From assembly GCA_018828505.1 (NCBI GenBank), contig JAHJVF010000135.1:1-34435 (forward strand): a stretch of DNA of 34,435 nt, written 5' to 3'. The stretch is from Bacteroidota bacterium. Its GTDB lineage: Bacteria; Bacteroidota; Ignavibacteria; Ch128b. Below, piece after piece: positions 13,082-34,435 of this stretch. Under the pieces are notes generated by a model. It ran no database searches and was not told the DNA's origin. It saw only the letters and a list, made by a program, of their open reading frames with translations. Each line of letters begins with the position of its first letter. The first letter of the stretch is position 1. Made by a program: the position numbers and the translations under genes.

Positions 13082-13345
13082 AGGATACGGGAAAAATATT
13101 ATATAAGAATTACACCAGGTCGTCTTTGTGATATGGTAAATGAAGTAGCAACTCATACAAAAGGTAGTAAACAGATAAAAGAAGAGCACCACCCCAATTG
13201 GGAAGGATATTTAATCGTCGATGAAAAATACATAAACGTCAAAGGTAAGAAGCAAGTTAGTCTGATAGCTGTAGATTCAAGTTGCGATATTGTACACGAG
13301 GAATTCTTAGCATATCAAGAGCAGACAAGATATGATGAATTTTTC

Positions 13346-13361
13346 GTCCGCCGTGGCGGAC
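13346..13361. repeat. 16-nt palindrome GTCCGCCGTGGCGGAC inserted in transposase
   Basis: Near-perfect palindrome (GTCCGCC/GGCGGAC around GT). Removing exactly these 16 nt joins YDEFF to IKSHLKYPFRSVITDLD in one open frame, so it is a precise insertion without a target duplication, or with one of at most a base or two. Same class as 172-186. Confidence 0.8.
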
Positions 13362-14238
13362 ATAAAGTCTCACCTTAAATATCCATTTAGGTCAGTTATA
13401 ACAGATTTAGATTTTATGTTAGAAAAGTCAATAAAAACAGTACTTAACAGCGATATTCCTCATCAGAAATGTTTGAAACACATGATAGAGAACGTAAAGA
13501 GGATACTAAATTATTCTAGCACGAAAGCCCAATACAACAAGCTGATGCGGATGCATCCCTTTGGGAAAAAACATGTCGAAAATAGAATTGTTATCAGTCA
13601 GGAAAAAGCAGAGCAATTAGAAGCCATAGAAGATAAATATTTTGTATAGGAGAACTTTTGTCTGGTATAAGAGAGATTTTGTATTGTACAAATAGAGCTG
13701 AATCAAATCTCAAGTTAAAACAGTTAAGAAATAGATTTGGTCCGAAATATTCGAAGGTGTTCAATTTGATTGATCATCATTTGACCGGGTTACTTAATCA
13801 TCAAAAGGATAACTTGATCCCAAAGACAAATAACCTGGCAGAAAATAAAAATTGACAGATTAAAAGAAGATTTAAAACAATTGAAGCATTTCAATCTAAA
13901 CAAAATGCTAGTAACTACTTAAGGTTCAAGCCATATACTGATTATCGTAAAAATAGAAAGTCACGCAATGGTAAATCTCTTTTAGAAATCTGTGGTGTAG
14001 TTCTAAGAAAAGAAGATCGGTTAAAAAATTCTGTAAATGTATATTAATTCAGTAGCCGAAAAGTGGTATGCGACCTTATTATTTTGATTTACAATAATCA
14101 TTGATTTATATAAATTAAAAATAAATGTTTACTTCCAAATTCTGGATATTGATTAGTAATTTTGGAAAGAAGATTTACTCTCTTGTACAATAAACTTATA
14201 TATTTAATCAGTATTAGATTTCAATTACATGCAATTAT

Positions 14239-15600: not shown

Positions 15601-16310
15601 ATGAAGTTCTTGCAACTTTTCCTGCGATTTTCTCTTCTGAGTATAATCACAATTTTTCTGAGTAAAGGTACAAGCTTTGCTCAAGAACCAATTGGTGGTC
15701 CATATACAGAACAAAATTAGTCGGACGACCCAAGAAGGGGAAACTTGTTTTTAATAAGCTGCACGATTACGCACAAATTTATCTTGATGGGAAATTTATT
15801 GGGACTGTCTACCGGAATAAAGAAGAAAATTCGATGATTGAGTTGCCGGAAACAGATGACCCAAATCCAACATTAGATGTTTTGGTTGAAGCTCTTGGAC
15901 GAATAAATTTTGGACCAAGACTTCTTGATAGAAAAGGTATAACGAATTATGTTGAGCTTAATGGTGTCACTTTGATGAATTGGAAAGTTTATAATCTTCC
16001 TATGAATTACTCCGATCTCAATAAATTGAAATTTACAGAAGAGATTGTTTCAACTGCACCTGCATTTTACAGCGGTCATTTCGATCTGGAAAAAACAGGA
16101 GACACGTTTCTTGATTTAAGCAAATGGAAAAAAGGATTTGTTTTTGTCAATGGGCATAATCTCGGTCGATACTGGGATATTGGTCCTCAACGTGATCTGT
16201 ATTTACCCGGTGTCTGGCTTAAAAAAGGAAGAAATGAAATTATAATTTTTGATTTATTGATAGATAAACCCGCACCGCTCAGCAGTTCTTCAATGAGAAA
16301 TAAAGATTGA
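15601..16310 (+). pseudogene. GH35 beta-galactosidase with catalytic barrel deleted
   Basis: A well-made start (AGGAGG, ATG at 15601) gives a signal peptide MKFLQLFLRFSLLSIITIFL…FAQ, but the frame ends at a TAG at 15717-15719. In another frame, from about 15693, comes WSIYRTKLVG, GKLVFNKLHDYAQIYLDGKF, and then GFVFVNGHNLGRYWDIGPQR and DLYLPGVWLKKGRNEIIIF, the C-terminal beta-domains of GH35 beta-galactosidases, to the stop at 16310. The whole TIM barrel (some 400 residues, with both catalytic Glu) is missing. A deletion joined the signal-peptide region to the C-terminal part out of frame. The protein was probably an exported galactosidase. No activity is expected now. Confidence 0.8.
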
Positions 16311-16395: not shown

Positions 16396-18780
16396 ATGAA
16401 AAGGCTTACTTATGTTCTTTTAGCAACTTTGTTGATGGCATTGAGCGGTTTTGCTCAAAGCACATCAATACTGTTTTTCTCGGGCAACGCTGGTGGACTT
16501 TCGGACAGCGTTACATACAGCTCCTGGGGGTTTGCCCAGAATCGGCTGCATTTAGCTGAACAACAAGGATATACCCCGGGTACCGATGCGTTACTTTGGG
16601 CTACGTCAAATTGGAGCTGGCAAGGTATTAATTTTGGTCTTAAACGCAAGCAGAATCTTAAAGCTACCTGGAATTCCGATACACTTAGTTTCAAGATTAA
16701 AGCTCCTGCCGGTATAAACACACTGCTTTCAAAAATTAAAGATAATGCAGGGAAAGCCGGTGTGTACATTTTTACCGGTTTAGATACTCTTTCTAAAGGA
16801 GACTGGCTGCAAGTTAAAGTTCCATTAAAGAACTTCGTACTCGAAACTCCGTTTGATACCACTCAGGTTCAAAATCTTACTTTTGAAGCAGCATACGAAA
16901 ACAAAACCATTCCGGAGACACTCTTATTTGATGATATACAAATCGGTTCTCCCAAAGTGGTCGTTCATGTAGTTGTATTTAACGGCAGGTCGCTGCAATA
17001 CGGGATAAGTTATAACGCTTGGGGATTTCCAAATAATAATCTTGTCATCGCTCAGGGTGAGGGATATGTTCCCGGAACGAACGCTATCAATTGGGAAGGG
17101 TCAAATTGGAGCTGGCAAGGGATGGAGTTTAAAATGCGTCCGCAGGATTTTACTAATTCTTGGCCTGCTGATACTCTTAAGTTTAAGATAAAAGCACCGG
17201 CAGGTATTAATTCGCTGTTAGTGCGTTGGAAAGATGCAAATGGAAAAAACGCAACTCGCATTCTAACAAGCAGTGATGTGGTTTATGACGGCACCTGGAA
17301 AAAGGTAAACGTACCGCTTAATTATTTTACTCCGGATGCAGGTTTTAACATGTCAAAAATTACAGCTTTCAGGATTGAAGCTGCTGTAGAAAATTTAACC
17401 GTTCCACAGCGTCTTCTGTTTACCGATATTTGGACCGGTAACCCTTCAATAGATGTTATTCCTCCTGCTGCACCTGCGAGTGTGTCGGTATCTACCGATC
17501 CTTCTTACCCGTATGTAAATCTGGTTTCTTGGGCTGATGTAACGAGCGAAACCGGCGAGACCTATAATGTTTATGCAAGTCTTTATCCTATAACTAAACT
17601 GGATACAAACACTGTTGTGCAAATAGCTGCAAATGTTCCGGAAGGTACAACCTCAATTCCTCACAGGCTTTATTATCCATTAAAGGATCATGCTATATCA
17701 TACTATTATGCAGTTGAAACGGTTGATAAAGCCGGGAATGTTTCTACAACTTTTGCTGCAACTCCAGCTCCTTACACAAATGTCGGAAAGAAGAGAGCTG
17801 TAATTTCATTAAATCCGCCCCAGAATTTTATAGCCGATGCCAACCTAAATGAGTGGACAAATATCGTTCCTTATACTATGAATCCAAAACGGAATATTTA
17901 TTCAGGGATAATTAGTGATTCACTCGATTACTCGGCTGAAGTTTATGTGGCAATAGATAGTGCCTTTTTGTACGTAGCCTTTGATGTATTAGATGATGTG
18001 TTCTCTTGGAGATCTACCAATACTCAACAATGGTGGGAGGATGAAAACATAGAGTTCTACTTCGGGCTTTATCAGTTATCCCGTCCGCATCAGGTCTTTC
18101 AACGCGGTAAAGAACCTGATTACCGGATTGTTTTTATACCTAACAGGCTGATGAGATCTACTCCTGGCTATCCTGATTTAGACATTTATCAGAACAATAC
18201 TGCCAATTATATTTGGAAAGATTTCGGCGGACGAGACTACATTATTGAAGCCAAAATTGCCTTGTCCAACATTCGGGTTTCGGACGACGCAATCTTTAAA
18301 CCGAAAAGAGGTATAGAAATTCCATTTGAAATATTCGCCGCCGATGCAGATGTTGTTAATGGCGGAAATCAAAGCTATCTTCAATTAGGAGACAATCCGG
18401 CGCTTAATCCTTTCCATGGGGGTCCTTCTAAATGGACATTTGCGTGGATAGGTGTCCCAGATTGGGTTACAGGTGTGGAAAAAACTGATAACAGTATCCC
18501 CACAATGTTTGAGGTAATGCAAAATTATCCAAATCCATTCAATCCTTCTAGTACAATAAGATTCGCAATACCTCATCAATCATTGGTTACTATTAAGATA
18601 TACAACATGCTTGGTCAAGAAGTAAAAACTCTCATGAATAAGGAAATGTCGCCTGGCTTGTATAATGTTCAATGGGATGGTAAAGATAATCATGGACAAA
18701 GTGCCGTAAGCGGTGTTTATGTTTATAGAGTTGTTGCCGGGCAATATTCTCAAAGCATGAAAATGCTTTTGCTTAAATGA
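16396..18780 (+). CDS. secreted multi-domain carbohydrate-binding protein with T9SS sorting domain
   Basis: 794 aa with AAGGAG before the ATG. Residues 1-20 are a signal peptide (…LLMALSGFA-Q). Two tandem repeats of about 165 aa follow (about 22-190 and 195-355). Each has an SWGF/AWGF start, SNWSWQG, and DTLKFKIKAPAGIN…, and resembles a beta-sandwich carbohydrate-binding module, though I cannot name the family. Residues about 360-460 look like fibronectin type III (VNLVSWADVTSETGETYNVY). Residues about 478-690 resemble CBM9/DOMON (FIADANLNEWTNI, YVAIDSAFLYVAFDVLDDVF, WWEDENIEFYF). The last 85 residues are a Por sorting domain (NYPNPFNPSSTIRFAIP). No hydrolase domain is seen. Probable surface glycan-binding protein, next to galactosidases. 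A terminator follows. Confidence 0.8.
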   Translation: MKRLTYVLLATLLMALSGFAQSTSILFFSGNAGGLSDSVTYSSWGFAQNRLHLAEQQGYTPGTDALLWATSNWSWQGINFGLKRKQNLKATWNSDTLSFKIKAPAGINTLLSKIKDNAGKAGVYIFTGLDTLSKGDWLQVKVPLKNFVLETPFDTTQVQNLTFEAAYENKTIPETLLFDDIQIGSPKVVVHVVVFNGRSLQYGISYNAWGFPNNNLVIAQGEGYVPGTNAINWEGSNWSWQGMEFKMRPQDFTNSWPADTLKFKIKAPAGINSLLVRWKDANGKNATRILTSSDVVYDGTWKKVNVPLNYFTPDAGFNMSKITAFRIEAAVENLTVPQRLLFTDIWTGNPSIDVIPPAAPASVSVSTDPSYPYVNLVSWADVTSETGETYNVYASLYPITKLDTNTVVQIAANVPEGTTSIPHRLYYPLKDHAISYYYAVETVDKAGNVSTTFAATPAPYTNVGKKRAVISLNPPQNFIADANLNEWTNIVPYTMNPKRNIYSGIISDSLDYSAEVYVAIDSAFLYVAFDVLDDVFSWRSTNTQQWWEDENIEFYFGLYQLSRPHQVFQRGKEPDYRIVFIPNRLMRSTPGYPDLDIYQNNTANYIWKDFGGRDYIIEAKIALSNIRVSDDAIFKPKRGIEIPFEIFAADADVVNGGNQSYLQLGDNPALNPFHGGPSKWTFAWIGVPDWVTGVEKTDNSIPTMFEVMQNYPNPFNPSSTIRFAIPHQSLVTIKIYNMLGQEVKTLMNKEMSPGLYNVQWDGKDNHGQSAVSGVYVYRVVAGQYSQSMKMLLLK

Positions 18781-18997: not shown

Positions 18998-22234
<3,237 letters not shown>

Positions 22235-22346: not shown

Positions 22347-25112
22347 ATGCCTACATCAACTGACTTACTAAACCAATTTTACCACAGAATTACAGCATGG
22401 ATAAGTTTGATTATCGTCTTATTTCTGTTTTACAGTGTTCCGACGCTAAGCCAAACCACCGGAAAAATTTCCGGAAAGGCTACGGATGCCGAAACCGGCG
22501 AACCGCTCATCGGAGCGAATGTTTTAATTGTTGGAGCCAGCAGAGGAGCAGCAACGGATATAGACGGTGAGTTCTACATAATCAATGTTTCGCCCGGTAA
22601 TTATAAACTTCGTTTTCAAATGGTTGGTTATGAAGCTTTGGAGTTAGAAGATTTAAGAGTTTCAATAAACCGTACAACAACTGCGAATGTAAAACTGAAG
22701 CAAACCGCAATAACTGTGGGTGAAGTTGTGGTAAAAGCGGATAGGGTGACTCAAAAGGATCAGACCGGTTCGATTAGGAATATTTCCGATAAAGAAATTT
22801 CATTTCTTCCTGTTGAAACAATTAACGACGTTGTTGCTTTGCAGCCGGGTGTGGTAGCAGGTCATTTTAGAGGCGGCAGAACCGGCGAAGTGCTTTATCT
22901 TTTGGACGGCATACCGGTTAATGAGAATTTCTCTTCGGGTAATGCTATCAATGTGGAAAAAGAAATAGTAAGGGATCTTGAAGTTATCTCAGGTACCTTT
23001 AGTGCAGAATACGGGCAGGCAATGAGCGGAGTTGTAAATGTTGTAACAAAAGACGGCGGAAACAGCTTTAGCGGTTCAGTATCCCGAAGCATGTCAAACT
23101 ACTATACTTCGCATAACGATATATTCATCGGACTAAAGAATAGTGAAATCAATAGAAATCAGGATTATAAGTTCCAGCTAAGCGGTCCGGTTATTCCGGA
23201 TGAGCTTACCTTCTTGTTTAACGTCCGGTACCAAGATAACAAAAACCATTTAAACGGGATTCACAGATTTGATGTTAATAATTACAGCGATTTTTCCTCG
23301 TCTGACTCGAGCCGGTGGTACACCAAACACACCGGCGGTAATGAGTACGTTCCCATGAACTTCAGCAAGAATCTGTCCTTATTTGGAAAGATTACTTCTA
23401 AATTGTCCGAAGATATTAAGGTTTCTTTACTTTATGATTATGGTAAGAACGACTATGAAGACTACAACCACATGTATAAGTATAATCCTTATGGTTCGCC
23501 AATAACCCACACCATAAGCAAACTGTCTGCATTGCAGCTAAATCATATTATATCAAAAGATCTTTTCTATGAAGCGAAGTTTTCGAATTTGTATTACTAC
23601 TTCGGAAACTACCCCTATGAAGATCCTTTCGATAGCCGTTATGTTCATGATGCTTATTTGAGAAGTACTGGGCCTGGTTTCTATACAGGGGGTCAAAGTA
23701 AGAATCATAACATTCACAAAGAGAATAAGTATTCGGTGAAGGTAGACCTTTCCTGGCAGGCAAATAAGCATCATCTCTTTAAGGTAGGAATACTGGGCAA
23801 TTTGATTAATTTAATAAACGACTGGCATACCATTAGAAATGCCTATGAAGGTACCGGTGTGCATCAAGATTATTTCTATTTTGATACTACTTCCGGAAGA
23901 GTGGTCTTCCCGTATTACAAGCCTGCGGTTTATGGAGATACCACAATCTATGCCGATGTTTACAGTGTATGGGCTAAGGATTTTGGGGCTTATATTCAGG
24001 ACAAAATGGAATATGACGAACTGGTGATTAACTATGGTTTGAGGTTCGACTATTTCAATCCGTCTTCCGTATATCCTTCACAGATTAGAAATCCCGGCAA
24101 CCTGCTTTCCTTCCCGGACAATCCGGAGAGAATGTCCCAATACCTAAGAACTAAACCGACTTATCAATTAAGTCCTAGAATAGGATTAGCATATGAATTA
24201 GGTCAGTATGCTGTTCTGCATTTCGGCTATGGTCATTTCTTTCAGACACCGCCGCTTTATGCATTATATCAAAACCATGCCTTTCTTGTTGGTCCAACTT
24301 CTTATTCAACAGTTATGGGGAATACGGAGCTTAAGCCGCAAAAGACAGTGCAATATGAAGTTGGTCTCGGGCAAGAATTAATTACGGGGATGAATTTAGG
24401 GGTTGCTGTTTTCTATAAGGATATTTATAATTTATTGAGTACTAAAGTTGTAACTACTTACAACCAGATTGCCTACGGAATGTACACAAATAAAGATTAT
24501 GGAAATGTAAAAGGTCTGGAAGTAAAATACGATTTCAGATTTGGGAATTTTGCCGCCTATTTAAACTACACTCTTCAGTATGCTACAGGCAATGCAGACA
24601 ATCCTACACAGACATTCACACGCGCAGGTAATAGTATGGATCCGATTTCTACATTGATTCCATTAGCCTGGGATCAACGTCATACTCTGAATTTAACTTT
24701 ATCTTATTCACTGCCGAGATTTAGTCTGACGGTTACAGGTTATTACAATTCAGGGGTTCCGTTTACATGGTCTCCTCCTACTCAAAACAGATTGGCTGAC
24801 ATAAACTTATATCCTAACAACTCGATACAGCCTTCTACGTTTGATGTGGATTTATATGGTTATTATAATTTATTAAATATAAAGCCGCTGCAAATTGAAC
24901 TGACGCTGAATATCTATAATTTATTCGATAGACTCAACGCAAGATGGGTCAATAGTCAAACCGGTCAACCTTACACTGCTATTGTACAAACATCAGACCT
25001 TACGAGTCATCACAGCGACTTCAATAGTTATTATGACATTATTCGTAATCCGGATATGTACTCAGTGCCACGTCAAATCAAACTTGGTCTAAGAGCCAAC
25101 TTCGATTTTTAA
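22347..25112 (+). CDS. TonB-dependent receptor (SusC-like uptake channel)
   Basis: 921-aa outer-membrane protein with GAAGGA before the ATG. The signal/membrane segment is residues about 15-36. A CarboxypepD_reg-like beta domain (about 40-125) has GKISGKATDAETGEPLIGAN and GYEALELEDL. The plug domain (about 135-235) has VETINDVVALQPGVV, YLLDGIPVN and EYGQAMSGVVNVVTK. The 22-strand barrel follows, with NPYGSP and NTELKPQKTVQYEVGLGQEL, and ends in the terminal aromatic NFDF. Such receptors import oligosaccharides or other large ligands using TonB energy. No SusD-like gene follows; the next gene (40 bp away) codes for a large secreted protein. First gene of a four- to five-gene cluster in one direction. 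Confidence 0.9.
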   Translation: MPTSTDLLNQFYHRITAWISLIIVLFLFYSVPTLSQTTGKISGKATDAETGEPLIGANVLIVGASRGAATDIDGEFYIINVSPGNYKLRFQMVGYEALELEDLRVSINRTTTANVKLKQTAITVGEVVVKADRVTQKDQTGSIRNISDKEISFLPVETINDVVALQPGVVAGHFRGGRTGEVLYLLDGIPVNENFSSGNAINVEKEIVRDLEVISGTFSAEYGQAMSGVVNVVTKDGGNSFSGSVSRSMSNYYTSHNDIFIGLKNSEINRNQDYKFQLSGPVIPDELTFLFNVRYQDNKNHLNGIHRFDVNNYSDFSSSDSSRWYTKHTGGNEYVPMNFSKNLSLFGKITSKLSEDIKVSLLYDYGKNDYEDYNHMYKYNPYGSPITHTISKLSALQLNHIISKDLFYEAKFSNLYYYFGNYPYEDPFDSRYVHDAYLRSTGPGFYTGGQSKNHNIHKENKYSVKVDLSWQANKHHLFKVGILGNLINLINDWHTIRNAYEGTGVHQDYFYFDTTSGRVVFPYYKPAVYGDTTIYADVYSVWAKDFGAYIQDKMEYDELVINYGLRFDYFNPSSVYPSQIRNPGNLLSFPDNPERMSQYLRTKPTYQLSPRIGLAYELGQYAVLHFGYGHFFQTPPLYALYQNHAFLVGPTSYSTVMGNTELKPQKTVQYEVGLGQELITGMNLGVAVFYKDIYNLLSTKVVTTYNQIAYGMYTNKDYGNVKGLEVKYDFRFGNFAAYLNYTLQYATGNADNPTQTFTRAGNSMDPISTLIPLAWDQRHTLNLTLSYSLPRFSLTVTGYYNSGVPFTWSPPTQNRLADINLYPNNSIQPSTFDVDLYGYYNLLNIKPLQIELTLNIYNLFDRLNARWVNSQTGQPYTAIVQTSDLTSHHSDFNSYYDIIRNPDMYSVPRQIKLGLRANFDF

Positions 25113-25152
25113 CTTTTAGAAATTAGATTGTTTCTTCAAATTGGAGGTTACG

Positions 25153-28100
25153 ATGACAATTAAGATTCTCTTGCTCATAATGTTGTTGATCATCAGCAGT
25201 TCATCTTTCAGTCAAGTTTTGAAATACCAGGGACCGGATGATCCTGCAGGCGATCCCGCCGCAAGAAGGGAAGCTTACATGAGGGGAAACCGTGTATTGC
25301 TTTATTTCCAGAATACAACCGAATTATCTTATTGGCCTAAATCAGATGCCTCACTATGGCCAAATAATTATGAAGGCACACGAATGCTTGACGGTATAGC
25401 ACTGATGGTTGGTGCAAAAGTGTATTTAGAAAAAGATACGATCCCTGTTGAAAACCCAAAAGGGAGAAGCGGCCTCGATACGCTTTATTATTGTCAGACA
25501 AGTTACCGGCAGGGAATGGATAGAAATCTAACAGGAACAATCACATGGGGATTTTATCCTGTGTTCGGATATTTCAATCCTACAAGTGAAACACCTGCTA
25601 TGAGCAATCGTCCGAATTCCTGGCCCCCTAACGGCTGGCCCTCACAGGGTGATCAAACAAAATGGCACGGAGAATGGGACGGCAGATTCGGCAGAGGTGT
25701 ACAGTATGCAGATTTGGAGACTTACTTTGTTGTAAATGATGCACAGGATCAAGAGTATCTTGTGTGGGGAAATAGAGTAAAATATTATCCGCGCCCGGGA
25801 GTGCGTATTGGCGATAAACGTCCGCAGGTAACAATTCAAAAAGGAATGCCGTGGGGAGGTATCGGTATCAGGGTTGCACAACGGGGATTTCAATGGAATA
25901 ATCCTCAAGCAAGGGATGCACTTTTCTGGGAGTATTCGGTTGCTAACATCTCAGATTATGATTTGCCTGATGTAGCTTTTGGTTATCGGGTAGATACCTG
26001 GATTGGCGGCGAAAGTTCAAGTGATGACGTCGGATATTATGATGCCTACGTCGATATGATGTATTGTTGGGATACCGACGGAATAGGTTTCGGAGGCAGA
26101 CCTACCGGGACCCTTGGTATTGCTTACCTTGAAAGCCCCGGGGCACCGGATGACGGTAAAGATAACGACGATGACGGAATTGTCGACGAGAAAAGAGACA
26201 ATGATGCTGGAACTAAAATTGTTGGACGCGACAATATAGTTGCTTATATGCAATCCCGTTACAATATGGCTAAGTTTCTCAAATATTATCAGTACAACAG
26301 TGTTGACGATATTCCTGCCGTTCAGCAAGGTGTTTGGTGGACCGGCGATGAAGATGGAGACTGGCGATCATTTGATGATCTTAACGGCAACGGTAAATTG
26401 GATAAAGGTGAACCGCTTAATAATGATGTTGGGCTTGACGGAGTTGGACCCGGCGATATAAACTATACCGGTCCCGATGAAGGTGAAGGAAACGGTAAAC
26501 CGGACTACGTTCAGGGTAAAGGCTGCGAACCTGAATTTAATGCTACCGACGTATCCGAATCAGATATGTTGGGTTTGACATCTTTCCAGATGTTTACCGA
26601 ACCGGACCCATCTTCTTCATATCGTTGGTTTCGGGGTGACAAATCGATGTGGGAACTAATTGGTACTGGACTGCTGCCAACAGAGTTTTGGTCAGGCAGT
26701 CTTTCAAATCTAGGGTTCACAATGTCTACCGGTCCTTTTCCGCTTAAAAAAGGGAGTGAAGAAAGGATATCAATGGCGGAACTGCATTCGTATGATCCCT
26801 TAGCCGGGTTGAATTCTAGCGTACATACTGCACCGGCGCTATTCGAGAAAAAAAGAATTGTTCAAGTTATATATGAAAAAGATTATCGATTCGCACAACC
26901 TCCGCTTTTACCTACGCTTAGTGCAACAGCAGGCGACGGTAAAGTGATATTGACGTGGGATGATAGGTCGGATACAAAAACAAGAGATCCTTTTGTAGGC
27001 AATGTAAATGATTTTGAAGGTTATAAGTTATTTAGAGCTACCGATAAAAACTTTTTGGATGCCTTGGTAATTACAGATGGTTTTGGCACAAAGAGCGGAC
27101 TAAAGCCGATTTTTCAATGCGATTTAGTTGATGGCATTTTCGGGTTTGCAAATTTTGGTGCAGTTAGCGGCGCCGAATATTATCTTGGTAATGAAAGCGG
27201 CATAGTCCACTGGTTCATTGATAACACAGTTCGAAACGGAGTTACATATTATTATGCTTTAGTTGCTTATGATTACGGCATACCTTCTTTGGGTGTTGCC
27301 CCTTCGGAAAACAATATTGTTGTGGAATTAGATGAGGCGGAAAACATCACCTTTACGGGGCAAAATGTTCAAGTTGTTACTCCACATCAGATGGCGGCAG
27401 GTTACCAACCTCCTTCACTTAAAGTCTTAAGCAGACCAAAAATTGGCAGCGGTAGTATAACTCCCGAAATACTCGCAACAGGCGATATTAAAACAAATCA
27501 TACCTACAAAATTAAATTTGATATCGACACTATCTACTCGGTACCTAATTATAATTACGGTCTTCAATACACAACAAGCGGTTTCTCCGTCTTTGATGAG
27601 ACTGATAACAACAAGCTCGTATATTCCGAATCGCCGCAAAATTACATGCCGGGTCATATTCTTTTCAATGACCAGTATAAATACTATTACCTTAATCCGG
27701 GAAAGGAAATCACAACCGATGTTTTCGACGGTTTAAATCTGAAAATAAATCTACCTTTAATCACTGCATCTTTCAATAAAAATAAATCCGGATGGCTGCA
27801 AGGAAACTCTCCGATTAGAATAACTCCCACAATCAAAGAATCAAGTTACTTCCCCTGGAATTATGAAATTATATTTCAGCCCAATGCTTATGTAAGCAAG
27901 GTTACGGATACCAGATTTGTTCGAGATGAAGCAGGCATTGGAAGACTTTCTAATCTTCTTACGAATCAGACATTTAATTTTAAGGTTCTGAATACCTCTT
28001 TCCCCGATTCAAACGGGAATTTTCAGGAAATGGATCTTGTGGCTCAAGATCAAAATTTTAACGGCGTTTTTGACATGAGAACCGATAGAGTCTTCGTCGG

Positions 28101-28614
28101 AGCTTTAACTCCAAGCGTAGTTTGGGCAGGAACAGTGTTCATCATCGACTTTAAACAAGCAGAATCGGATCAGCAGCTTCCTCGTGACGGAGATAAATAT
28201 TTCGTTACCTTTGACAGACCTTTCTTTCTTACAGATTCGATGACATTTATTGTTATGCCGGAGAAGTCGTTAGATCCCGGGAAACTAAAAGAAACGATGG
28301 ACCGGATCAAAGTTGTACCGAATCCTTATGTTGCTACTAATGCTATGGAACCGGCAGTATCCAATAAATTTCTCAACCAGAGAAGGAGTCTGCTGTTTAC
28401 CCATCTGCCGGCTAAGTGCACTATTAAAATTTTTACTGTGAGCGGAGTTTTGGTCGATGAGTTTCATGTAGATAATCCTTCGGATAATGGAACAGCCCAT
28501 TGGGATATGCTCAGCAGAGAGGGGCTCGATATTGCTGCCGGAGTCTACATATACTATGTAAAATCGGATTTAACAAGCGATACCAAAATTGGAAAGTTCG
28601 CAGTCATAAAGTAA
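25153..28614 (+). CDS. large secreted protein with acidic EF-hand-like repeats and C-terminal sorting-type domain, function unknown
   Basis: 1153 aa. The start at 25153 has GGAGG at 25143-25147. A signal peptide MTIKILLLIMLLIISSSSFS is followed by Q. Near residues 335-360 and 400-450 are Asp-rich stretches (DDGKDNDDDGIVDEKRDNDA, DLNGNGKLDKGEPLNND) that look like calcium-binding dockerin/EF-hand-type loops. Residues about 595-720 have fibronectin-like features (GDGKVILTWDDRSD, GVTYYYALVAYDYG). The end resembles a Por sorting domain variant (IKVVPNPYVATNAMEP, then LDIAAGVYIYYVKSD…KFAVIK). It lies between the TonB-dependent receptor and a PorV-like gene (20 bp), so it probably works at the cell surface with the receptor, perhaps in the SusD role. 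That role is inference. No enzyme motif is seen. Confidence 0.7.
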   Translation: MTIKILLLIMLLIISSSSFSQVLKYQGPDDPAGDPAARREAYMRGNRVLLYFQNTTELSYWPKSDASLWPNNYEGTRMLDGIALMVGAKVYLEKDTIPVENPKGRSGLDTLYYCQTSYRQGMDRNLTGTITWGFYPVFGYFNPTSETPAMSNRPNSWPPNGWPSQGDQTKWHGEWDGRFGRGVQYADLETYFVVNDAQDQEYLVWGNRVKYYPRPGVRIGDKRPQVTIQKGMPWGGIGIRVAQRGFQWNNPQARDALFWEYSVANISDYDLPDVAFGYRVDTWIGGESSSDDVGYYDAYVDMMYCWDTDGIGFGGRPTGTLGIAYLESPGAPDDGKDNDDDGIVDEKRDNDAGTKIVGRDNIVAYMQSRYNMAKFLKYYQYNSVDDIPAVQQGVWWTGDEDGDWRSFDDLNGNGKLDKGEPLNNDVGLDGVGPGDINYTGPDEGEGNGKPDYVQGKGCEPEFNATDVSESDMLGLTSFQMFTEPDPSSSYRWFRGDKSMWELIGTGLLPTEFWSGSLSNLGFTMSTGPFPLKKGSEERISMAELHSYDPLAGLNSSVHTAPALFEKKRIVQVIYEKDYRFAQPPLLPTLSATAGDGKVILTWDDRSDTKTRDPFVGNVNDFEGYKLFRATDKNFLDALVITDGFGTKSGLKPIFQCDLVDGIFGFANFGAVSGAEYYLGNESGIVHWFIDNTVRNGVTYYYALVAYDYGIPSLGVAPSENNIVVELDEAENITFTGQNVQVVTPHQMAAGYQPPSLKVLSRPKIGSGSITPEILATGDIKTNHTYKIKFDIDTIYSVPNYNYGLQYTTSGFSVFDETDNNKLVYSESPQNYMPGHILFNDQYKYYYLNPGKEITTDVFDGLNLKINLPLITASFNKNKSGWLQGNSPIRITPTIKESSYFPWNYEIIFQPNAYVSKVTDTRFVRDEAGIGRLSNLLTNQTFNFKVLNTSFPDSNGNFQEMDLVAQDQNFNGVFDMRTDRVFVGALTPSVVWAGTVFIIDFKQAESDQQLPRDGDKYFVTFDRPFFLTDSMTFIVMPEKSLDPGKLKETMDRIKVVPNPYVATNAMEPAVSNKFLNQRRSLLFTHLPAKCTIKIFTVSGVLVDEFHVDNPSDNGTAHWDMLSREGLDIAAGVYIYYVKSDLTSDTKIGKFAVIK

Positions 28615-28634
28615 TGTTGTAGAAAGGTTCGGGT

Positions 28635-29720
28635 ATGAGGACTATAAAAGAGTTTTATATGAAATCTGGTAAACTGGCGTTAATTTCTATCATTGCAGTT
28701 TTTATGCTTACTCCAGGAGTTATTGCTCAAGTACCAAATAGGGTTGGCACAACTGCAGCAAACTTTCTGGAAGTTGGATTTGGCGCCGCTGCCACTGCCA
28801 TGGGCGATTCGTATGTTGCTGATGCCAACGACGTATCGAGCATTTATTGGAATCCTGCCGGGCTTGCCTATCTGGAGAATTCAGAAGCCATGTTTACAGT
28901 TAAGCCCTGGATCGCAAATATAAATATGGGTTTTGCCGGCGTTGGAGTTCCTATTCCAAATATAGGAACATTAGGATTGGGAATAGTATATGTAAATTAT
29001 GGTCAAATGGAAGTAACTACACTTGATATGCAGGACGGCACAGGCGAGGAATTTTCGGCAAGCGATTATGCATTCTCTCTTACTTATTCCCGGAAAATTG
29101 CCGAATGGTTTTCCTTTGGGCTCAGCGCTAAATACATATCTTCTTCCATATGGCATACAAGCGCCAGTGCCTTTGCAATGGATCTTGGTGTTATAGTCAA
29201 AACGAATTTCTTCTCGCCTACATCTCAAAGAGAAGGTGGAATGAAGATTGGTATGAGCATTTCAAATTATGGAACCAAGATGCAATACGACGGTATGGAT
29301 TTATTGAATCCTATTGACATCCTCCCTTATGAAAGTGGAAACTATGCATACGTACCGGGTCAATTCAGGTTAAGTTCGTGGGAGCTGCCGCTTATTTTCA
29401 GAATCGGCATATCCGTAACACCGATTGTTACAAACTCATCCAGATTAAAGCTGGAAGTAGGCGCTCTTCATCCTAACAATAACTATGAATCCGTTAACGT
29501 AGGCGGACAGTATATGAGGGATGTGATATCTTTCGGAACCTTATATTTTAGAGGAGGATATAAAGCCCTATTTATGCAAAACTCAGAATACGGACTTACA
29601 CTTGGTGCAGGATTTAAACTTCAACTGCCCCAAAACATTCATGTTCAGGTGGATTATTCTTACCAGGCTATGGGAATATTTGGTTATGTTAATTCATATT
29701 CTGTTAATGTTGCATTTTGA
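28635..29720 (+). CDS. PorV/PorQ-like (UPF0164) outer-membrane protein
   Basis: 361 aa. GAAAGG precedes the ATG at 28635; a second ATG at 28659 would also give a good signal peptide (MKSGKLALISIIAVFMLTPGVIA). The mature part starts with VGTTAANFLEVGFGAAATAM then GDSYVADANDVSSIYWNPAG, the hallmark of UPF0164/PorV-PorQ proteins. The remainder alternates beta-strands (FSFGLSAKYISSS, LYFRGGYKALF) and ends in VNVAF, typical of a FadL-like barrel. PorV shuttles T9SS cargo to the attachment complex. This copy sits next to a cargo-type protein and a TonB receptor, so it may serve that partner. Placement is seen; the role is inferred. Confidence 0.8.
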   Translation: MRTIKEFYMKSGKLALISIIAVFMLTPGVIAQVPNRVGTTAANFLEVGFGAAATAMGDSYVADANDVSSIYWNPAGLAYLENSEAMFTVKPWIANINMGFAGVGVPIPNIGTLGLGIVYVNYGQMEVTTLDMQDGTGEEFSASDYAFSLTYSRKIAEWFSFGLSAKYISSSIWHTSASAFAMDLGVIVKTNFFSPTSQREGGMKIGMSISNYGTKMQYDGMDLLNPIDILPYESGNYAYVPGQFRLSSWELPLIFRIGISVTPIVTNSSRLKLEVGALHPNNNYESVNVGGQYMRDVISFGTLYFRGGYKALFMQNSEYGLTLGAGFKLQLPQNIHVQVDYSYQAMGIFGYVNSYSVNVAF

Positions 29721-29753
29721 TATCCTAAATTAAAATATTTATAATAAATTTTT

Positions 29754-29913
29754 TTGTAACTACTCAGTCTGTTTTTTGTGATTTCTTTGTTTGCTCCAAG
29801 AAAATAAAGAAATCCCCCTCACCCCCTTTGGAAAGGGGGATACAGGCTGAAAGCCCGACTTCTTTTTGGCGGGGGGATTTTTTGAATCAACGACTTCAAC
29901 TGAGTAGTTACAA
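29754..29913. mobile_element. MITE-like element, 15-bp inverted repeats, internal hairpins
   Basis: TTGTAACTACTCAGT (29754-29768) is the reverse complement of 29899-29913. Inside are AAATCCCCC…GGGGGATTT arms (29810-29818, 29872-29880), a perfect CCCCCTTT/AAAGGGGG hairpin (29822-29839) and GGCT/AGCC (29845-29855). The end shares ACTCA-GTTGA with the MITE at 4801-4949. It lies in the gap between the PorV-like and SurA-like genes and may act as a terminator or attenuator. Confidence 0.65.
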
Positions 29914-29965
29914 TATTGTTAATCCTAACTCAAAATTCAAAGGGTAGTGAAAGGAAATAATTTCT

Positions 29966-31504
29966 ATGAATAGAAAAATTTTCACCTTGATTTTTTTAGT
30001 AATTTCAGTTTTTCTCTCGTTTCAATTCTGCCAGGGTAAAGGAAAAAAAAGCGGGAACTCTGATATTGTGGCTAAGGTGGGAAACCAGGTAATTACCACC
30101 GGGGAATTTATCAGAAGAGCAGAGTATACAGTTAGACCTCTTTACTGCCAAGGAAGCAGTAATGTAGACAAGCAGATTATTCTTAACTCATTGATTGCTG
30201 AAAAGCTGCTGGCACAAGAAGCGGCTGAAGATTCAGACTTTTATTCTAATAAGAATATTATGTCTTATTTAGAAGGACGAAAAGAGCAGGCAATGCGGCA
30301 GGTTCATTATTACTACGAGGCATATAACAAGGTTAAGGTGAATCCGGATGTAGTAAAAAGAATTTTTCCGCTGGCAGGCAGAAAGTATAATGTTTCATAC
30401 TTTACTGTTGATAAGGAAAAGGAAGCTGCTTTTGTAAGAAAGAAGCTTTTTAAAGATAAGATGCCTTTTAACAAAATGTTCGCTTTGCTTTCACACACAA
30501 AAGGAGATTCACTGCCTTCAAGACAAGTTTCATGGGAGAAAGGGGAAGTGAAAGAAATTGAGCAGGCATTGTTTTCCTATCCTCTAAAAAAAGATGAGAT
30601 TGTAGGACCTGTAAGTATAAACGGCAAATTTATATTTATGAGAATTAACGGATGGATAGATTCGCCGCGGCGAACTGTTTCGGAAAATCAGGCTGATCAA
30701 AGATTAGACGATATAACTGATTGGCTTAAAGAAAATAAAGCATGGGAAAACTACAAGTTGTACGTTGCCGGATTAATGAAAGGGAAAAAAGTTGAGTTCG
30801 TTAGAGAAACTTTTGAGAACCTTGCTGTGCTTGCAGCTAAAGCGACAATTGTAAGTGATTCTATCCGGAAGGCGATATTAAAAAAAGAAATCTGGGATCC
30901 CAACAAAGAAATGAGAGGATTAACTGCAGATATGGTGGAAGATATTAGAACTATTGCAGACCATCCTTTGCTTAAGATTGATGGGAAGATTTGGACTATT
31001 AAAGACTTCCAGGCTGAGATTAAAAAGCATCCGTTGGTTTTCAGAAACAGATACTTGAGCAAGAAAAACTTTGTAGAAGAGTTTAGACTGGCAATAGTCG
31101 ATTTAATTAGTGACAAGTACATAACTCTTGATGCTTATAAAAAAGGTTATGATAAAGACAAGATGGTTACGGAAAACTACAACATGTGGAAAGAGAGCTT
31201 GCTTGCATTATATCAGAAGCATAAATTTCTAAATGAAAGAGGAGTAAAGGAACATGATCAAATGGAGATTATAAAAAAATATTTGGATCCTTATGTTGTG
31301 TCGCTATTTAAAAAGTACAGCGGTGAAATCCAGATAAATGTTCCTGCGTTCAACAAGATTGAGTTGACAAGAATAAGCATGGTATCGGTGCAGCCGGAAA
31401 TGGCATTCCCTTTATTAGTTCCTTCCTTTCCCACACTTACTACCAACAGCAGACTTGATTATGGAAAGAACCAAGACTATTTTTTCATCAAAATATTTCC
31501 GTAA
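29966..31504 (+). CDS. SurA/PpiC-like peptidyl-prolyl isomerase or periplasmic chaperone
   Basis: 512 aa, AAAGGA before the ATG. Residues 1 to about 22 are a hydrophobic export signal (IFTLIFLVISVFLSFQFC); the Cys could be a lipid site, but the lipobox is poor. The N-terminal chaperone part has IVAKVGNQVITTGEFIRRAE and IILNSLIAEKLLAQEA, the SurA/PrsA pattern. A parvulin-like domain is near residues 130-230 (YNVSYFTVDKEKEAAFVRKK, ALFSYPLKKDEIVGPVSINGK). The C-terminal third is helical and not recognised. It may fold the outer-membrane proteins encoded just upstream. A MITE separates it from the PorV-like gene, so read-through may be reduced. Confidence 0.75.
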   Translation: MNRKIFTLIFLVISVFLSFQFCQGKGKKSGNSDIVAKVGNQVITTGEFIRRAEYTVRPLYCQGSSNVDKQIILNSLIAEKLLAQEAAEDSDFYSNKNIMSYLEGRKEQAMRQVHYYYEAYNKVKVNPDVVKRIFPLAGRKYNVSYFTVDKEKEAAFVRKKLFKDKMPFNKMFALLSHTKGDSLPSRQVSWEKGEVKEIEQALFSYPLKKDEIVGPVSINGKFIFMRINGWIDSPRRTVSENQADQRLDDITDWLKENKAWENYKLYVAGLMKGKKVEFVRETFENLAVLAAKATIVSDSIRKAILKKEIWDPNKEMRGLTADMVEDIRTIADHPLLKIDGKIWTIKDFQAEIKKHPLVFRNRYLSKKNFVEEFRLAIVDLISDKYITLDAYKKGYDKDKMVTENYNMWKESLLALYQKHKFLNERGVKEHDQMEIIKKYLDPYVVSLFKKYSGEIQINVPAFNKIELTRISMVSVQPEMAFPLLVPSFPTLTTNSRLDYGKNQDYFFIKIFP

Positions 31505-31582
31505 ACTATGTTTTTAGAGGTTCCCATAATATATTCTATGGATTTTAAGCAAAACCATCACTCATTTCTTACGGCAATATTG

Positions 31583-33433
31583 ATGAAAAGTAAAACTCTT
31601 TTGTTCATTTTGATCGCAGTTTCTTTCGCAGACTGCCAATCTCAAAATATTCAAATTAATATTGATGCGTCGGTAAAGTATCAGACAATTGATAATTTCG
31701 GAGCTTCCGATGCCTGGTGGGCTCAAAAGGTTGGCGGATGGTTTCTTCCGAATAAAGAGAAAGTTGCCGATTTGCTCTTCTCTGAAACAAAAGGAATTGG
31801 ATTGAGCGCCTGGAGGTTTAATGTCGGCGGCGGAATCAATACAACTACTATTACCGATCCATGGAGAACTGTTGCGACATTTGAAGTTGGAAAAGATCAA
31901 TACGATTGGACAAGACAGGCAAACGAACGATGGTTCCTTCAAGCTGCAAAAAAAAGAGGTGTCAAACAATTTATAGCATTTGTTAACAGTCCGCCAGGCA
32001 GAATGACTAAAAACGGATATACTAATTGTACCGACGGACTGGGAACAACTAATTTGAAATCCGGATATGAAAAAGAGTATGCAAAGTATCTAACAGATAT
32101 ACTTAAGCATTTTCAGGATTCTTTAGGGATAACATTCAATTATATAAGTCCGGTTAACGAGCCAGAATGGGAATGGAATGCAAAGTCGAATCAAGAGGGG
32201 AATAGAGCATCCAATGACGACATAAAACGAATAGTAAAGGCTCTCTATTCTGAACTGAAAAGTCAAGGCGTACCAACTGAAATAAACTTGATTGAATCGG
32301 GCGCATTGAAACATTGGTATTTATATCAAAATGACATATCCAGCAAGTACGGCGCACAGTACGGTAATTACTTGTATGATATCTTTGTGGATACAACAAT
32401 TAGCAATAAAGTTGCAAAGATATTGGGAGGACATTCATACGGATCGGATCTCATCTCAACCCAGCTTACTCAAGAAAGAGAACAACTGAAATCTCGTATT
32501 GATCCTTTCTTAAATAACGGACGGAAATATTGGGTTACAGAGTACTGCATTCTGCAAGGTCCTGATGGTGAAGGCGGAAACAGGAGAGACCTTAGTATCA
32601 ATACTGCCATAAATGTTGCTCGAATTATTCATTATGATTTGACTACCTTAAGTGCCAGCGCCTGGCAATGGTGGTTAGCCGTTTCACCATACGATTACAA
32701 AGATGGTTTACTTTATACCGATTACCACAATGCAGGTGATTATCAATCAATAATACCATCTAAGACGTTGTGGGCAGTCGGAAACTTTAGCAAATTCATT
32801 AGACCTGGATCTTTGCGAATTCAATATCAAGGAGCTGATGATAAATACGGGCTAATGGCATCGTCATATTTAGACGAAGCAAATAATAGACTTGTTATTG
32901 TCTTAATAAATGCCGGTACGGATAAAAAGGATGTGCAAATAAAGGTTTCGGGTTTGGATTCGGGTAAGGTGATTACTGCTTTTACACCTTTTGTTACAAG
33001 CGACGATCCCGGCGATAACTTAACGCAATACGCATCATTTGAAAAAGATTCGACTTATATTGTTAAGCCGAGGTCTGTTGTAACATTGATTGGCAATCTG
33101 GACGGGACAATACTTTCTTCTGTAAAAGATCAGCCCATGTTGCCGCTGCAGTTAAACTTATTTCCAAATTTTCCTAATCCGTTCAATTCATCTACTATAA
33201 TTGCATATTACATCCCCCGCAAAAGTTTTGTGACAATCAAAGTTTACGATGTGCTCGGAAATGAAATCGCCAATTTAGTTCAAGAGGAAAAAGAAATGGG
33301 CAAGTATCAAATCAGATTCAATGGATTTAATCTCCCGAGCGGCGTATATTTTTATCGACTTGTGGTGAGCGGGGCGAATCCATTAACTGCCGACGGTTTT
33401 ACTCAAACTAAAAAAATGCTTTTGATTCGCTAA
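31583..33433 (+). CDS. GH30-family secreted glycosidase (endo-beta-1,6-galactanase-like) with T9SS sorting domain
   Basis: 616 aa from the ATG at 31583, where a signal peptide starts (KSKTLLFILIAVSFADC-QSQ); an in-frame ATG at 31508 would add 25 odd residues. The TIM barrel starts YQTIDNFGASDAWWAQKVGG, then GLSAWRFNVGGG, VNSPPGRMTKNGYTN, YISPVNEPEWEWN (acid/base Glu193) and KYWVTEYCILQGP (nucleophile Glu320). The beta domain follows (RLVIVLINAGTDKKDVQIKV). The last 80 residues are a Por sorting domain (FPNFPNPFNSSTIIAYYIP). The pattern is GH30, closest in memory to the endo-beta-1,6-galactanase subfamily; the subfamily is inferred. It would cut galactan or arabinogalactan side chains outside the cell. 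It lies 78 bp after the SurA-like gene. Confidence 0.82.
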   Translation: MKSKTLLFILIAVSFADCQSQNIQINIDASVKYQTIDNFGASDAWWAQKVGGWFLPNKEKVADLLFSETKGIGLSAWRFNVGGGINTTTITDPWRTVATFEVGKDQYDWTRQANERWFLQAAKKRGVKQFIAFVNSPPGRMTKNGYTNCTDGLGTTNLKSGYEKEYAKYLTDILKHFQDSLGITFNYISPVNEPEWEWNAKSNQEGNRASNDDIKRIVKALYSELKSQGVPTEINLIESGALKHWYLYQNDISSKYGAQYGNYLYDIFVDTTISNKVAKILGGHSYGSDLISTQLTQEREQLKSRIDPFLNNGRKYWVTEYCILQGPDGEGGNRRDLSINTAINVARIIHYDLTTLSASAWQWWLAVSPYDYKDGLLYTDYHNAGDYQSIIPSKTLWAVGNFSKFIRPGSLRIQYQGADDKYGLMASSYLDEANNRLVIVLINAGTDKKDVQIKVSGLDSGKVITAFTPFVTSDDPGDNLTQYASFEKDSTYIVKPRSVVTLIGNLDGTILSSVKDQPMLPLQLNLFPNFPNPFNSSTIIAYYIPRKSFVTIKVYDVLGNEIANLVQEEKEMGKYQIRFNGFNLPSGVYFYRLVVSGANPLTADGFTQTKKMLLIR

Positions 33434-33638: not shown

Positions 33639-34435
33639 ATGATAAATTTACTTTCACATCCCCATCGTAGATACAACATTCTCACTGATGAGTGGATACT
33701 TGTATCGCCTCAGCGTGTAGATAGACCCTGGCAGGGAAAAGTTGAAGATTTCCTAAAAGAAAAAATTCCTCAGTACGATTCTAATTGTTACTTATGTCCA
33801 GGTAATGAACGTGCTAACAATAAAATTAATCCCAACTATAAAAGCACTTATGTATTTGATAATGATTTCAGTGCATTATCATTTGAAAAAGAAAATTGGA
33901 TTCCGTCTTTCGATGGAATGACAAACGAGGAACAACTCTTAATCTTACAGCCAGAACATGGCATTTGCCGTGTTGTTTGTTTTTCACCGCGACACGATTT
34001 AACACTCGCCCAAATGGAAATTGAAGACATAATGAAGGTTGTAGATGTTTGGATCGATGAGTATCAAACTTTGGGAAGCAAGGATAAAATTAATTATGTA
34101 CAGATTTTTGAGAACAAAGGTGAGTTGATGGGATGCAGCAATCCTCATCCGCATGGACAAATTTGGGCGCAGCAATCGATCCCTGCCGAATCGTCAAAAG
34201 AAACTAAACAAATGAAAAGACATTTGAGTGAAAAAGGAAGATGCCTGTTATGCGATTATCTCTCGGAAGAATTGAATTGTGGTGAAAGAATAGTCACTGG
34301 AAATTCTGACTTCATTGCTATCGTTCCATTTTGGGCAATATGGCCTTTTGAGATTTTGATTTTAAGTACTCGTCACATTATTAACATTAACCAATTCAAT
34401 GATTTAGAGAAGAAATCTTTTGCCGAAATCATCAA
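33639..34435 (+). CDS. galT: galactose-1-phosphate uridylyltransferase, 3' end beyond window
   Basis: First 265 codons of galT, open to the window edge. The enzyme transfers UMP from UDP-glucose to galactose 1-phosphate in the Leloir pathway. Seen: the N-terminal HRRYNILTDEWILVSPQRVD…PWQG; the zinc-site pair CYLC (Cys50, Cys53); and the active site SNPHPHGQIWA, where His172 is the UMP-carrying nucleophile and His170 its neighbour, close to the numbering in Escherichia coli (164/166). IVPFWAIWPFEILILSTRH follows as in the family. No clear Shine-Dalgarno. A LacI-type operator upstream suggests sugar control. It completes a galactose route with galM, the GH2 and the GH30 enzyme; galK is not in the window. 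Confidence 0.93.
   Translation, partial: MINLLSHPHRRYNILTDEWILVSPQRVDRPWQGKVEDFLKEKIPQYDSNCYLCPGNERANNKINPNYKSTYVFDNDFSALSFEKENWIPSFDGMTNEEQLLILQPEHGICRVVCFSPRHDLTLAQMEIEDIMKVVDVWIDEYQTLGSKDKINYVQIFENKGELMGCSNPHPHGQIWAQQSIPAESSKETKQMKRHLSEKGRCLLCDYLSEELNCGERIVTGNSDFIAIVPFWAIWPFEILILSTRHIININQFNDLEKKSFAEII

Follow-up and report, generated by a model that had tools for sequence, protein, structure and literature searches.

A recurrent TonB-dependent receptor, giant secreted protein and PorV-like barrel as a possible SusD-free route for complex-sugar uptake in Ignavibacteria

A set of three adjacent genes, encoding a TonB-dependent receptor (TBDR), a giant secreted protein (here termed BIG) and a PorV-like barrel, is repeated beside sugar-degrading genes in bacteria where SusC and SusD are few or none, and may represent a route for the uptake of complex sugars. 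The module was analysed in a window of 34,435 nucleotides, the whole stretch of DNA considered here, from a Bacteroidota bacterium of the class Ignavibacteria. The original prediction proposed the order TBDR, BIG, PorV-like protein and foldase for positions 22347 to 31504, and all four genes are real, correctly placed and carried on the plus strand (Table 1). The best start of BIG is the ATG at 25153, located just after a GGAGG, which matches the predicted length of 1153 residues; an alternative TTG at 25141 would give 1157 residues. The inverted-repeat element ahead of the foldase gene occurs as a single copy in the assembly and is probably an insertion outside the machine.

Table 1. Positions of the module, its domains and its neighbours in the window
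Feature	Position	Strand	Evidence
CBM30/CBM9 protein with T9SS tail, same cluster	16396..18780	+	
LacZ-type GH2 beta-galactosidase, upstream neighbour	19004..22234	+	NF052611, 1156.6 bits (cut-off 999)
TBDR with N-terminal CarboxypepD_reg-like extension, 921 aa	22347..25112	+	PF00593, PF13715, PF07715
BIG, giant secreted protein, 1153 aa, no Pfam family	25153..28614	+	ATG after GGAGG
BIG residues about 30-580, predicted beta-supersandwich domain (approximate limits)	25240..26892	+	VIA-align
BIG residues about 585-720, putative Fn3-like domain	26905..27312	+	Foldseek, weak sequence match
BIG residues 1041-1153, C-terminal domain resembling the retained ones of PorZ and PorU	28273..28611	+	
PorV/PorQ-family FadL-type barrel, 361 aa, likely dedicated BIG holder	28635..29720	+	NF033709
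160-bp element bounded by perfect 14-bp inverted repeats, located between the PorV-like gene and the foldase gene	29754..29913	.	
SurA/PrsA-type peptidyl-prolyl isomerase, 512 aa, optional fourth gene	29966..31504	+	SurA_N_3
GH30 protein with ordinary T9SS tail, downstream neighbour	31508..33433	+	PF14587, 305.6 bits; PF18962, 30.7 bits
galT, galactose-1-phosphate uridylyltransferase, runs off the window	33639..34433	+	TIGR00209, 316 bits (cut-off 102)

The genome to which the window belongs possesses ten complete TBDR-BIG-PorV modules of the same order, that of the window included, plus cut-off remnants, and the module is also found in Ignavibacteria, Neomarinimicrobiota, Calditrichota, KSB1 and further genomes labelled as Bacteroidota. 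A cultured relative, Stygiobacter electus 09-Me (L101), possesses it as well. Among 80 named loci, a TBDR lies upstream of BIG in 68 of the 73 that have at least 600 bases visible on that side, and a PorV gene lies downstream in 64 of the 71 with at least 600 bases visible there, which bears out the suggested conservation of gene order across Ignavibacteria and relatives. In a phylum sample of 30 loci the corresponding figures were 28 and 30 (loci L126 to L155 include one, L126, from the window's own genome). Across ten closed or nearly closed genomes, 65 of 117 PorV-family genes were located directly 3' of BIG or of a BIG-tail match, one of these 65 adjacencies being the PorU-PorV pair of genome G188, against about 0.1 by chance. 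The recurrence in the window's own genome, the 80 named loci and the ten near-closed genomes rules out chance gene order; some loci show a reversed order or tandem BIGs. The three proteins also co-diversify, with Mantel correlations of 0.92, 0.92 and 0.87 for the ten own-genome modules (p 0.0013 or less) and of 0.96, 0.88 and 0.92 across 35 loci (p 0.001); within a close set of seven own paralogues, BIG and PorV correlate weakly (r 0.42, p 0.145).

The receptor of the window had been described as SusC-like. Its identity as a TonB-dependent receptor is clear from the domains PF00593 (94 bits), PF13715 (CarbopepD_reg_2, 71 bits) and PF07715 (Plug, 36 bits), all over their cut-offs, but it scored only 76.8 bits against the SusC/RagA model TIGR04056, for which the cut-off is 368, so that SusC-like can be used only as a loose label. 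The absence of a SusD was correctly anticipated: BIG comes next after the TBDR, and the SusD models PF07980 and PF12771 had no match anywhere in the assembly (539 contigs, 97.9% complete). PF07980 is likewise missing from 27 of the 31 BIG-bearing genomes of the window's class. Outside this class, however, BIG and SusD are found together in 38 of 46 BIG-bearing genomes, and BIG is therefore not simply a SusD replacement.

Links to glycan use are seen in the genes around the modules, in agreement with the original prediction. Copies in the window's own genome adjoin, in different places, a GH130 gene with a sugar ABC transporter; GH3, GH16, GH5-CBM6 and SSF genes; or a LacI regulator with GH94. 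The 179 flanking ORFs tallied at the named loci include 48 with T9SS tails, 21 ABC permeases, 15 sugar-binding proteins, 15 CBM9, 13 GH16, 12 GH3 and 7 LacI; this tally omits 5 of 184 ORFs (three of L108 and two of L119) and covers plus-strand ORFs of at least 250 aa that are free of ambiguous residues. The modules thus combine an outer-membrane importer with neighbouring glycan-active enzymes, transporters and regulators, as in a polysaccharide utilisation locus in the broad sense. A variant with a short BIG adjoins not glycanases but a T9SS-tailed OB-fold protein, an NHL protein and a gene of the endonuclease/phosphatase family, and the substrates are therefore not always glycans.

A Pfam profile search with BIG returned no family match, including none of CAZy type. 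The acidic calcium-type loops originally noticed were recovered as conserved D-x-D-x-D-G loops. The AlphaFold model of BIG (pLDDT 88.2) consists mostly of strands, and its N-terminal domain is predicted to be a beta-supersandwich. In VIA-align it matched 9ju0 with a Z-score of 19.8 (2.9 A over 255 residues), GH94 3rrs with 18.2 and GH116 8i5o with 16.7, and the matches to GH15, GH94 and GH116 chains as a whole reached Z 16-20 over 235-279 residues. An acidic-loop insertion is located within this domain, near residues 330-470. The region that follows matched fibronectin-type chains in Foldseek at low TM-scores and gave a weak Fn3-like sequence match to 3mpc (E 0.15). BIG is probably not a plain relative of SusD: it has no sequence match to SusD, SusD is absent among the structural matches listed for the predicted model in Foldseek and VIA-align, and the modelled N-terminal domain is, as far as seen, not SusD-shaped. 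A supersandwich fold in a model is by itself no proof of glycan binding.

The C-terminus of BIG had been called sorting-type. It misses the cut-off of 23 bits for the type A sorting model TIGR04183, with 14.7 and 19.4 bits, but a C-terminal domain is present and is PorZ-like. Among curated families, the PorZ tail matches it best; it aligned to the C-terminal domain of PorZ 5m11 with a VIA Z-score of 11.7 (2.1 A, 87 residues, 25% identity), and the BIG family profile gave E-values of 0.0078 and 0.25 against the tails of 6za2 and 5m11. A model built from BIG tails scored 44.3 bits with the PorU of the same genome and 0.7 to 28 bits with 27 ordinary cargo tails. From the tail comparison of 30 loci, four were dropped (read in a wrong frame, their letters showing no tail), as was L157, which has no open frame. 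The BIG tail thus belongs to a different class from ordinary sorting tails and is nearer to the retained tails of PorU and PorZ. Passages of PMC10202324 state that the PorZ and PorU tails stay on PorQ and PorV and propose protection by cognate PorV-like barrels, and passages of PMC9143113 describe type B cargo as held by PorP-like barrels. The barrel encoded next to BIG was rightly assigned to this family, with 212.6 bits against a cut-off of 90 for NF033709, and its family profile matched PorV 6h3i with 95 bits. It is not a canonical PorV or PorQ, as it scored 102.3 bits with NF033710 (cut-off 250) and 102.2 bits with NF033711 (220); the canonical PorV candidate of the genome adjoins PorU on contig C479. 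The original prediction of an own shuttle holds for the dedicated PorV-type barrel but not for a shuttle-only role: since the BIG tail is of the retained kind, a holding function suits the PorV-like protein better. The T9SS dependence foreseen for BIG is consistent with the presence of PorU, the T9SS sortase, in all 77 BIG-bearing genomes surveyed, as compared to 59 of 121 other genomes.

The fourth gene was predicted to encode a SurA-like foldase serving as the module's own chaperone. Its identity was upheld by SurA_N_3 (29.1 bits, cut-off 27.2) and by the match of the family profile to the PrsA parvulin chain 4wo7 (E 4.3e-8), which places it with the SurA/PrsA type; the single sequence reached 15 bits with Rotamase_2, below the cut-off of 27. 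It is probably a lipoprotein, as judged by eye from a Cys in the aligned N-termini. It recurs in part of the family, directly after PorV in 15 of the 48 named loci with a visible next gene, and these 15 fall into two related subfamilies of 8 and 7. In the window's own genome it accompanies two of the ten modules, the copy on contig C324 being a divergent homologue. These frequencies rule it out as a core part. It is rearranged or displaced in L056, L066, L073, L077, L081 and L082.

We consider it somewhat more probable than the contrary that the TBDR-BIG-PorV core forms the outer-membrane portion of a SusD-free polysaccharide utilisation locus, in which a retained BIG captures glycans beside the TBDR. 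BIG would be exported by the T9SS, its PorZ/PorU-type C-terminal domain would stay uncleaved and seated on the adjacent PorV-like barrel, and the protein would in this way be displayed next to the receptor, which it might cap in the lid role originally suggested. The supersandwich domain would capture glycan chains; in the window the glycan probably contains galactose and would be cut by the T9SS-sorted enzymes encoded nearby. Import of the oligosaccharides would fall to the TonB-driven receptor. ABC transporters or symporters of the inner membrane, followed by phosphorylases or hydrolases, would complete glycan use, and the foldase of some copies may aid the folding of large exported proteins. 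That the module fulfils the SusCD function through unrelated components and has branched out to a wide range of glycans, the short-BIG variant perhaps acting on extracellular nucleic acid or organophosphate, is a wider reading to which we give slightly less than even credence.

BIG might instead be an ordinary T9SS glycan-binding protein, with the PorV-like protein acting only as a shuttle, PorU cutting the tail, BIG being attached to LPS or released into the medium, and the linkage to the TBDR reflecting co-regulation and no complex. PorV is known as a shuttle, according to passages of PMC9143113, and the genome has a single PorU and about 104 proteins whose ordinary sorting tails exceed the cut-off. 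In addition, a prediction in which the TBDR barrel and the BIG N-terminal domain of L102 were fused gave no interface (pTM 0.59, pLDDT 66.9); this was a single chain with the plug left out to stay below 1200 residues, based on only 21 sequences (L102 and 20 in-frame rows), and its pTM roughly equals the fraction of the chain taken up by the larger domain, as for two unrelated domains, so that it speaks neither for nor against a contact. However, there would be no need for a PorV paralogue in each module if the one canonical PorV next to PorU were enough, the BIG tail is closer to the retained class, and the three genes co-diversify, so that ordinary cargo appears unlikely.

Retention of BIG as a binding protein has also to be weighed against an enzymatic function, with an active site in the supersandwich domain, as suggested for the fucanase family GH174 or some polysaccharide lyases, and surface cleavage coupled to uptake. 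This domain matched GH174 8jd7 (VIA Z 14.0) and PL26 5xqj (Z 13.6), and at least eight Trp residues, from W69 to W602, show 96-100% conservation across the family, as do many Asp and Glu. The conserved acids, however, fit calcium loops, no CAZy-type Pfam match supports an enzyme, and the BIG model has no helical domain after the supersandwich, whereas in GH15, GH94 and GH116 the catalytic residues sit in an alpha/alpha barrel; we regard an enzyme as improbable. A mainly structural or adhesive surface assembly, similar to an S-layer or adhesin, in which the TBDR would be a mere passenger, seems very improbable: S-layer and adhesin chains are among the weak Foldseek matches, but at TM-scores of about 0.1 and from common Ig/Fn3 folds, and the linkage to transporters, LacI regulators and phosphorylases fits nutrition.

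The proposed importer resembles several known systems. As in SusCD importers, a TonB-dependent receptor with a CarboxypepD_reg-like extension is encoded with a surface partner, glycanases and a regulator are present in the locus, and many paralogues exist per genome; here, however, the partner is not a lipoprotein but a T9SS-type supersandwich protein of 1000-1400 aa, a PorV-like barrel is added, the window's genome has no SusD, and its TBDR falls below the SusC/RagA cut-off. With PorZ-PorQ and PorU-PorV, described in passages of PMC10202324 and PMC8545088, the module would share a surface protein retained through its C-terminal domain on a FadL-type barrel of the PorV/PorQ family, and the match of the tail to PorZ agrees with this, whereas the body of BIG has, as far as seen, neither the PorZ propeller nor the PorU protease and the module is TBDR-linked and present in ten copies in this genome. 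A dedicated FadL-type barrel encoded beside each secreted protein is also known from SprB-SprF and PG1035-PorP (PMC9143113, in part), but these use a PorP/SprF barrel and a type B tail instead of a PorV/PorQ-family barrel, a PorZ-like tail and a link to nutrient uptake. In the BamG-BamH(-PPI) canopy of the Bacteroidota BAM complex, as presented in sections of PMC12611786 and PMC12578637, a FadL-type pillar holds an extracellular protein over a neighbouring barrel and PPI-fold partners occur, but this canopy serves outer-membrane protein folding and its subunits are lipoproteins, not T9SS cargo. GH15, GH94 and GH116 have the fold predicted for BIG residues of about 30-580, together with the catalytic barrel that the BIG model lacks.

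In the open full-text literature, bioRxiv excluded and with few subscription papers, no description of the TBDR-BIG-PorV module was found. Sections of PMC10576277 report that susCD genes were scarcely detected in the CAZyme clusters of Ignavibacteriales and were absent from Ca. Kapabacteria, and call the polymer-use machinery of these groups distinct. The module is a concrete candidate to fill this SusCD gap in Ignavibacteria. If the proposed reading is correct, the T9SS would have a nutritional role beyond enzyme secretion, in building the importer itself, and the ten or so PorV paralogues in these genomes would be accounted for. The combination of TBDR, BIG and PorV would then also provide an annotation marker for SusD-free polysaccharide utilisation loci in uncultured lineages.

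The giant secreted protein of the window, here termed BIG, recovered a family of paralogues when used as a query against its own 3.9-Mb assembly. The order TonB-dependent receptor (TBDR), BIG and PorV-like barrel on one strand, hereafter the module, was found in ten complete sets, the window included (contigs C74, C324, C310, C50 with two, C412, C38, C454, C83 and C385), and in two remnants truncated at contig ends (C198 and C115). In C385, BIG did not reach the threshold when searched for with the window sequence, and was recognised by its matching tail. Of 14 PorV-family genes over the cut-off, 10 are located within modules and 1 adjoins the single PorU gene. No match to the SusD families PF07980 and PF12771 was detected in this assembly; about 104 ordinary T9SS sorting tails are over the cut-off. 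Contig C154 carries an orphan BIG-like gene (1149 aa) without adjoining TBDR or PorV, whose tail scored 66 bits on a model built from the tails of BIG relatives.

Features of the window and of two further contigs of the same genome
Feature	Coordinates	Strand	Remarks
Transposase-like gene	1-1490		apparently broken, several frames (by eye); weak HTH_Tnp_ISL3 trace
Transposase-like gene	12551-14044		apparently broken, several frames (by eye); flanks the cluster, as does 1-1490
GH35-type beta-galactosidase remnant	15666-16310		in frame only C-terminal all-beta and galactose-binding domains; no catalytic domain seen
LacZ-type GH2	19004-22234	+
TBDR	22347-25112	+	CarboxypepD_reg extension
BIG	25153-28614	+	1153 aa; no Pfam family matched
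PorV/PorQ-family barrel	28635-29720	+
MITE-like element	29754-29913		160 bp; perfect 14-bp terminal inverted repeats (TTGTAACTACTCAG); one copy in the assembly
SurA/PrsA-type foldase	29966-31504	+
GH30 enzyme	31508-33433	+	T9SS tail
galT	33639-	+	3' end beyond the window
Response regulator, C310	L017:17948-19405		sigma-54 interaction domain
Orphan BIG-like gene, C154	L196:1523-4972

The original prediction was correct in the coordinates, lengths and order of the receptor, BIG, barrel and foldase genes. The receptor, which it described as SusC-like, has the CarboxypepD_reg extension, but its score against the SusC/RagA model was only 76.8 bits, far under the cut-off of 368. The MITE-like element lies between the barrel and foldase genes.

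The gene order, whose conservation had been proposed as a check, recurs widely. Among the best 80 of 518 confirmed loci in a scan of named genomes by BIG alone, a TBDR was found immediately 5' of BIG at 68 of the 73 loci with room and PorV immediately 3' at 64 of 71. These 80 were labelled Ignavibacteria/Melioribacteraceae/Stygiobacter (21), Marinimicrobia/Neomarinimicrobiota (20), Bacteroidetes/Bacteroidota (16), Calditrichota-type (8), KSB1 (6), Chlorobiota (1) and Deferribacteres (1), with 7 unlabelled, and such relatives are in keeping with the Ignavibacteria of the original prediction. In 30 loci taken from the phylum survey, the TBDR was upstream in 28 and PorV downstream in all 30. Departures were mainly inverted orders or tandem BIGs (L048, L049, L051, L056, L077, L078 and L081); the KSB1- and Caldithrix-labelled loci L049 and L051 have three BIG genes in tandem. 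Ten closed or nearly closed genomes together contain 117 PorV-family genes, and 65 of these begin -50 to 600 bases from a BIG or BIG-tail match (expected, about 0.1), a count that scored the BIG-PorV pairing only and that includes one pair (G188) that is PorU-PorV judging from its coordinates. The window BIG shares up to 58-63% identity with Calditrichia and Neomarinimicrobiota copies and 31-38% with its own paralogues: subtypes of the module are shared between phyla, either through transfer or because the paralogy is old.

The three components have also diversified together. Among the ten own-genome modules, where species history is no confounder, the TBDR, BIG and PorV distances correlated with r of 0.92, 0.92 and 0.87 (p 0.0013 or less); for the seven closest sets, r was 0.70, 0.76 and 0.42, the last (BIG-PorV) not being significant (p 0.145). 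Across genomes, 35 loci gave 0.96, 0.88 and 0.92 with species history left in.

At 48 of the named loci (best 80 of 518) the gene beyond PorV can be seen. Foldase homologues, which form two related subfamilies (hhalign 99.9%), directly follow PorV at 8 and 7 of these, respectively, and also in C324. The chaperone assigned to the module is recurrent, but it is an accessory gene and not part of the core.

BIG was present at an E value of 1e-20 in 77, and SusD in 104, of 198 genomes of the phylum sample. In the class of the window (49 genomes), 27 had BIG only, 4 both and 4 SusD only, whereas the corresponding numbers for the remaining 149 were 8, 38 and 58, suggesting that the module replaces SusD in this class and coexists with it elsewhere. 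The T9SS dependence foreseen for BIG is supported by PorU, which was found in 77/77 BIG-bearing versus 59/121 BIG-less genomes (Fisher p 1e-17, shared ancestry uncorrected).

An AlphaFold2 model of BIG, generated with 66 relatives, had a mean pLDDT of 88.2 and a pTM of 0.75. Residues of about 30-580 correspond to the beta-supersandwich of GH15, GH94 and GH116 (VIA-align, maximum Z 19.8, 255 residues aligned at 2.9 A), and GH174 and PL26 were also matched (Z 13-14). The catalytic site of GH94-type enzymes is located in the alpha/alpha barrel, and since no such barrel follows the supersandwich domain in the model, a catalyst of this type is unlikely. The last domain superimposes on the PorZ tail (Z 11.7, 2.1 A, 25% identity), and Foldseek placed PorZ first and PorU fourth by E value, at low global TM-scores. 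The BIG-tail model gave 69-168 bits for own BIG tails, 44.3 for own PorU and 0.7-28 for 27 ordinary cargo tails. According to excerpts of published work, the PorU tail is uncleaved and stays on PorV, the PorZ tail is kept on PorQ, and cognate PorV-like barrels were proposed to protect such tails (PMC10202324; PMC8545088). BIG and its barrel also resemble SprB-SprF, where a secreted protein is held by a dedicated barrel (excerpts of PMC9143113), and BamG-BamH, where a FadL-type pillar holds an extracellular protein (excerpts of PMC12611786 and PMC12578637). By analogy with these pairs, BIG is probably held on its own PorV-like barrel with its tail intact. As to contact between BIG and the receptor, a model of the TBDR barrel and the BIG N-domain fused in one chain had a pTM of 0.59, close to that expected of two unrelated domains, and a pLDDT of 66.9.

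Several modules neighbour genes for glycan use: that of C324 adjoins GH130 and a sugar ABC transporter, that of C310 lies near GH3, GH16, GH5-CBM6, CBM9 and a sodium symporter, and C50 has two LacI-type regulators and GH94. The copies of C454, C83 and C385 are without clear glycanases, C385 having a GHL10 protein. A response regulator adjoining the C310 cluster is a possible regulator of that locus. The leading families in 179 flanking ORFs of the named loci (best 80 of 518) were T9SS tails (48), ABC permeases (21), sugar-binding proteins (15), CBM9 (15), GH16 (13) and GH3 (12). A conserved locus with a shorter BIG of about 700 aa (L203, L204 and L205, in genomes G124, G132 and G003) contains a T9SS-tailed OB-fold protein, TBDR, PorV and an NHL-repeat protein, with an additional endonuclease/exonuclease/phosphatase gene in G124. 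This content suggests that the module architecture reaches beyond glycans, possibly to nucleic-acid or phosphate scavenging. In most of the ten closed genomes, a BIG tail and a PorV gene are similarly separated by 7 kb.

The available excerpts of two genome papers, which report that Melioribacter roseus has a single SusCDE operon as well as Por sorting domains (PMC3534657) and mention other TBDRs in Caldithrix abyssi (PMC5317091), contain no description of the module. Its parts are of known kinds, and their combination is undescribed as far as the literature was searched. The central point of the original prediction is strengthened, the rest being supported in part: the module may be regarded as a recurrent, SusD-free, T9SS-dependent uptake module, in which BIG would bind glycan and, retained by its tail, would serve uptake through the receptor.
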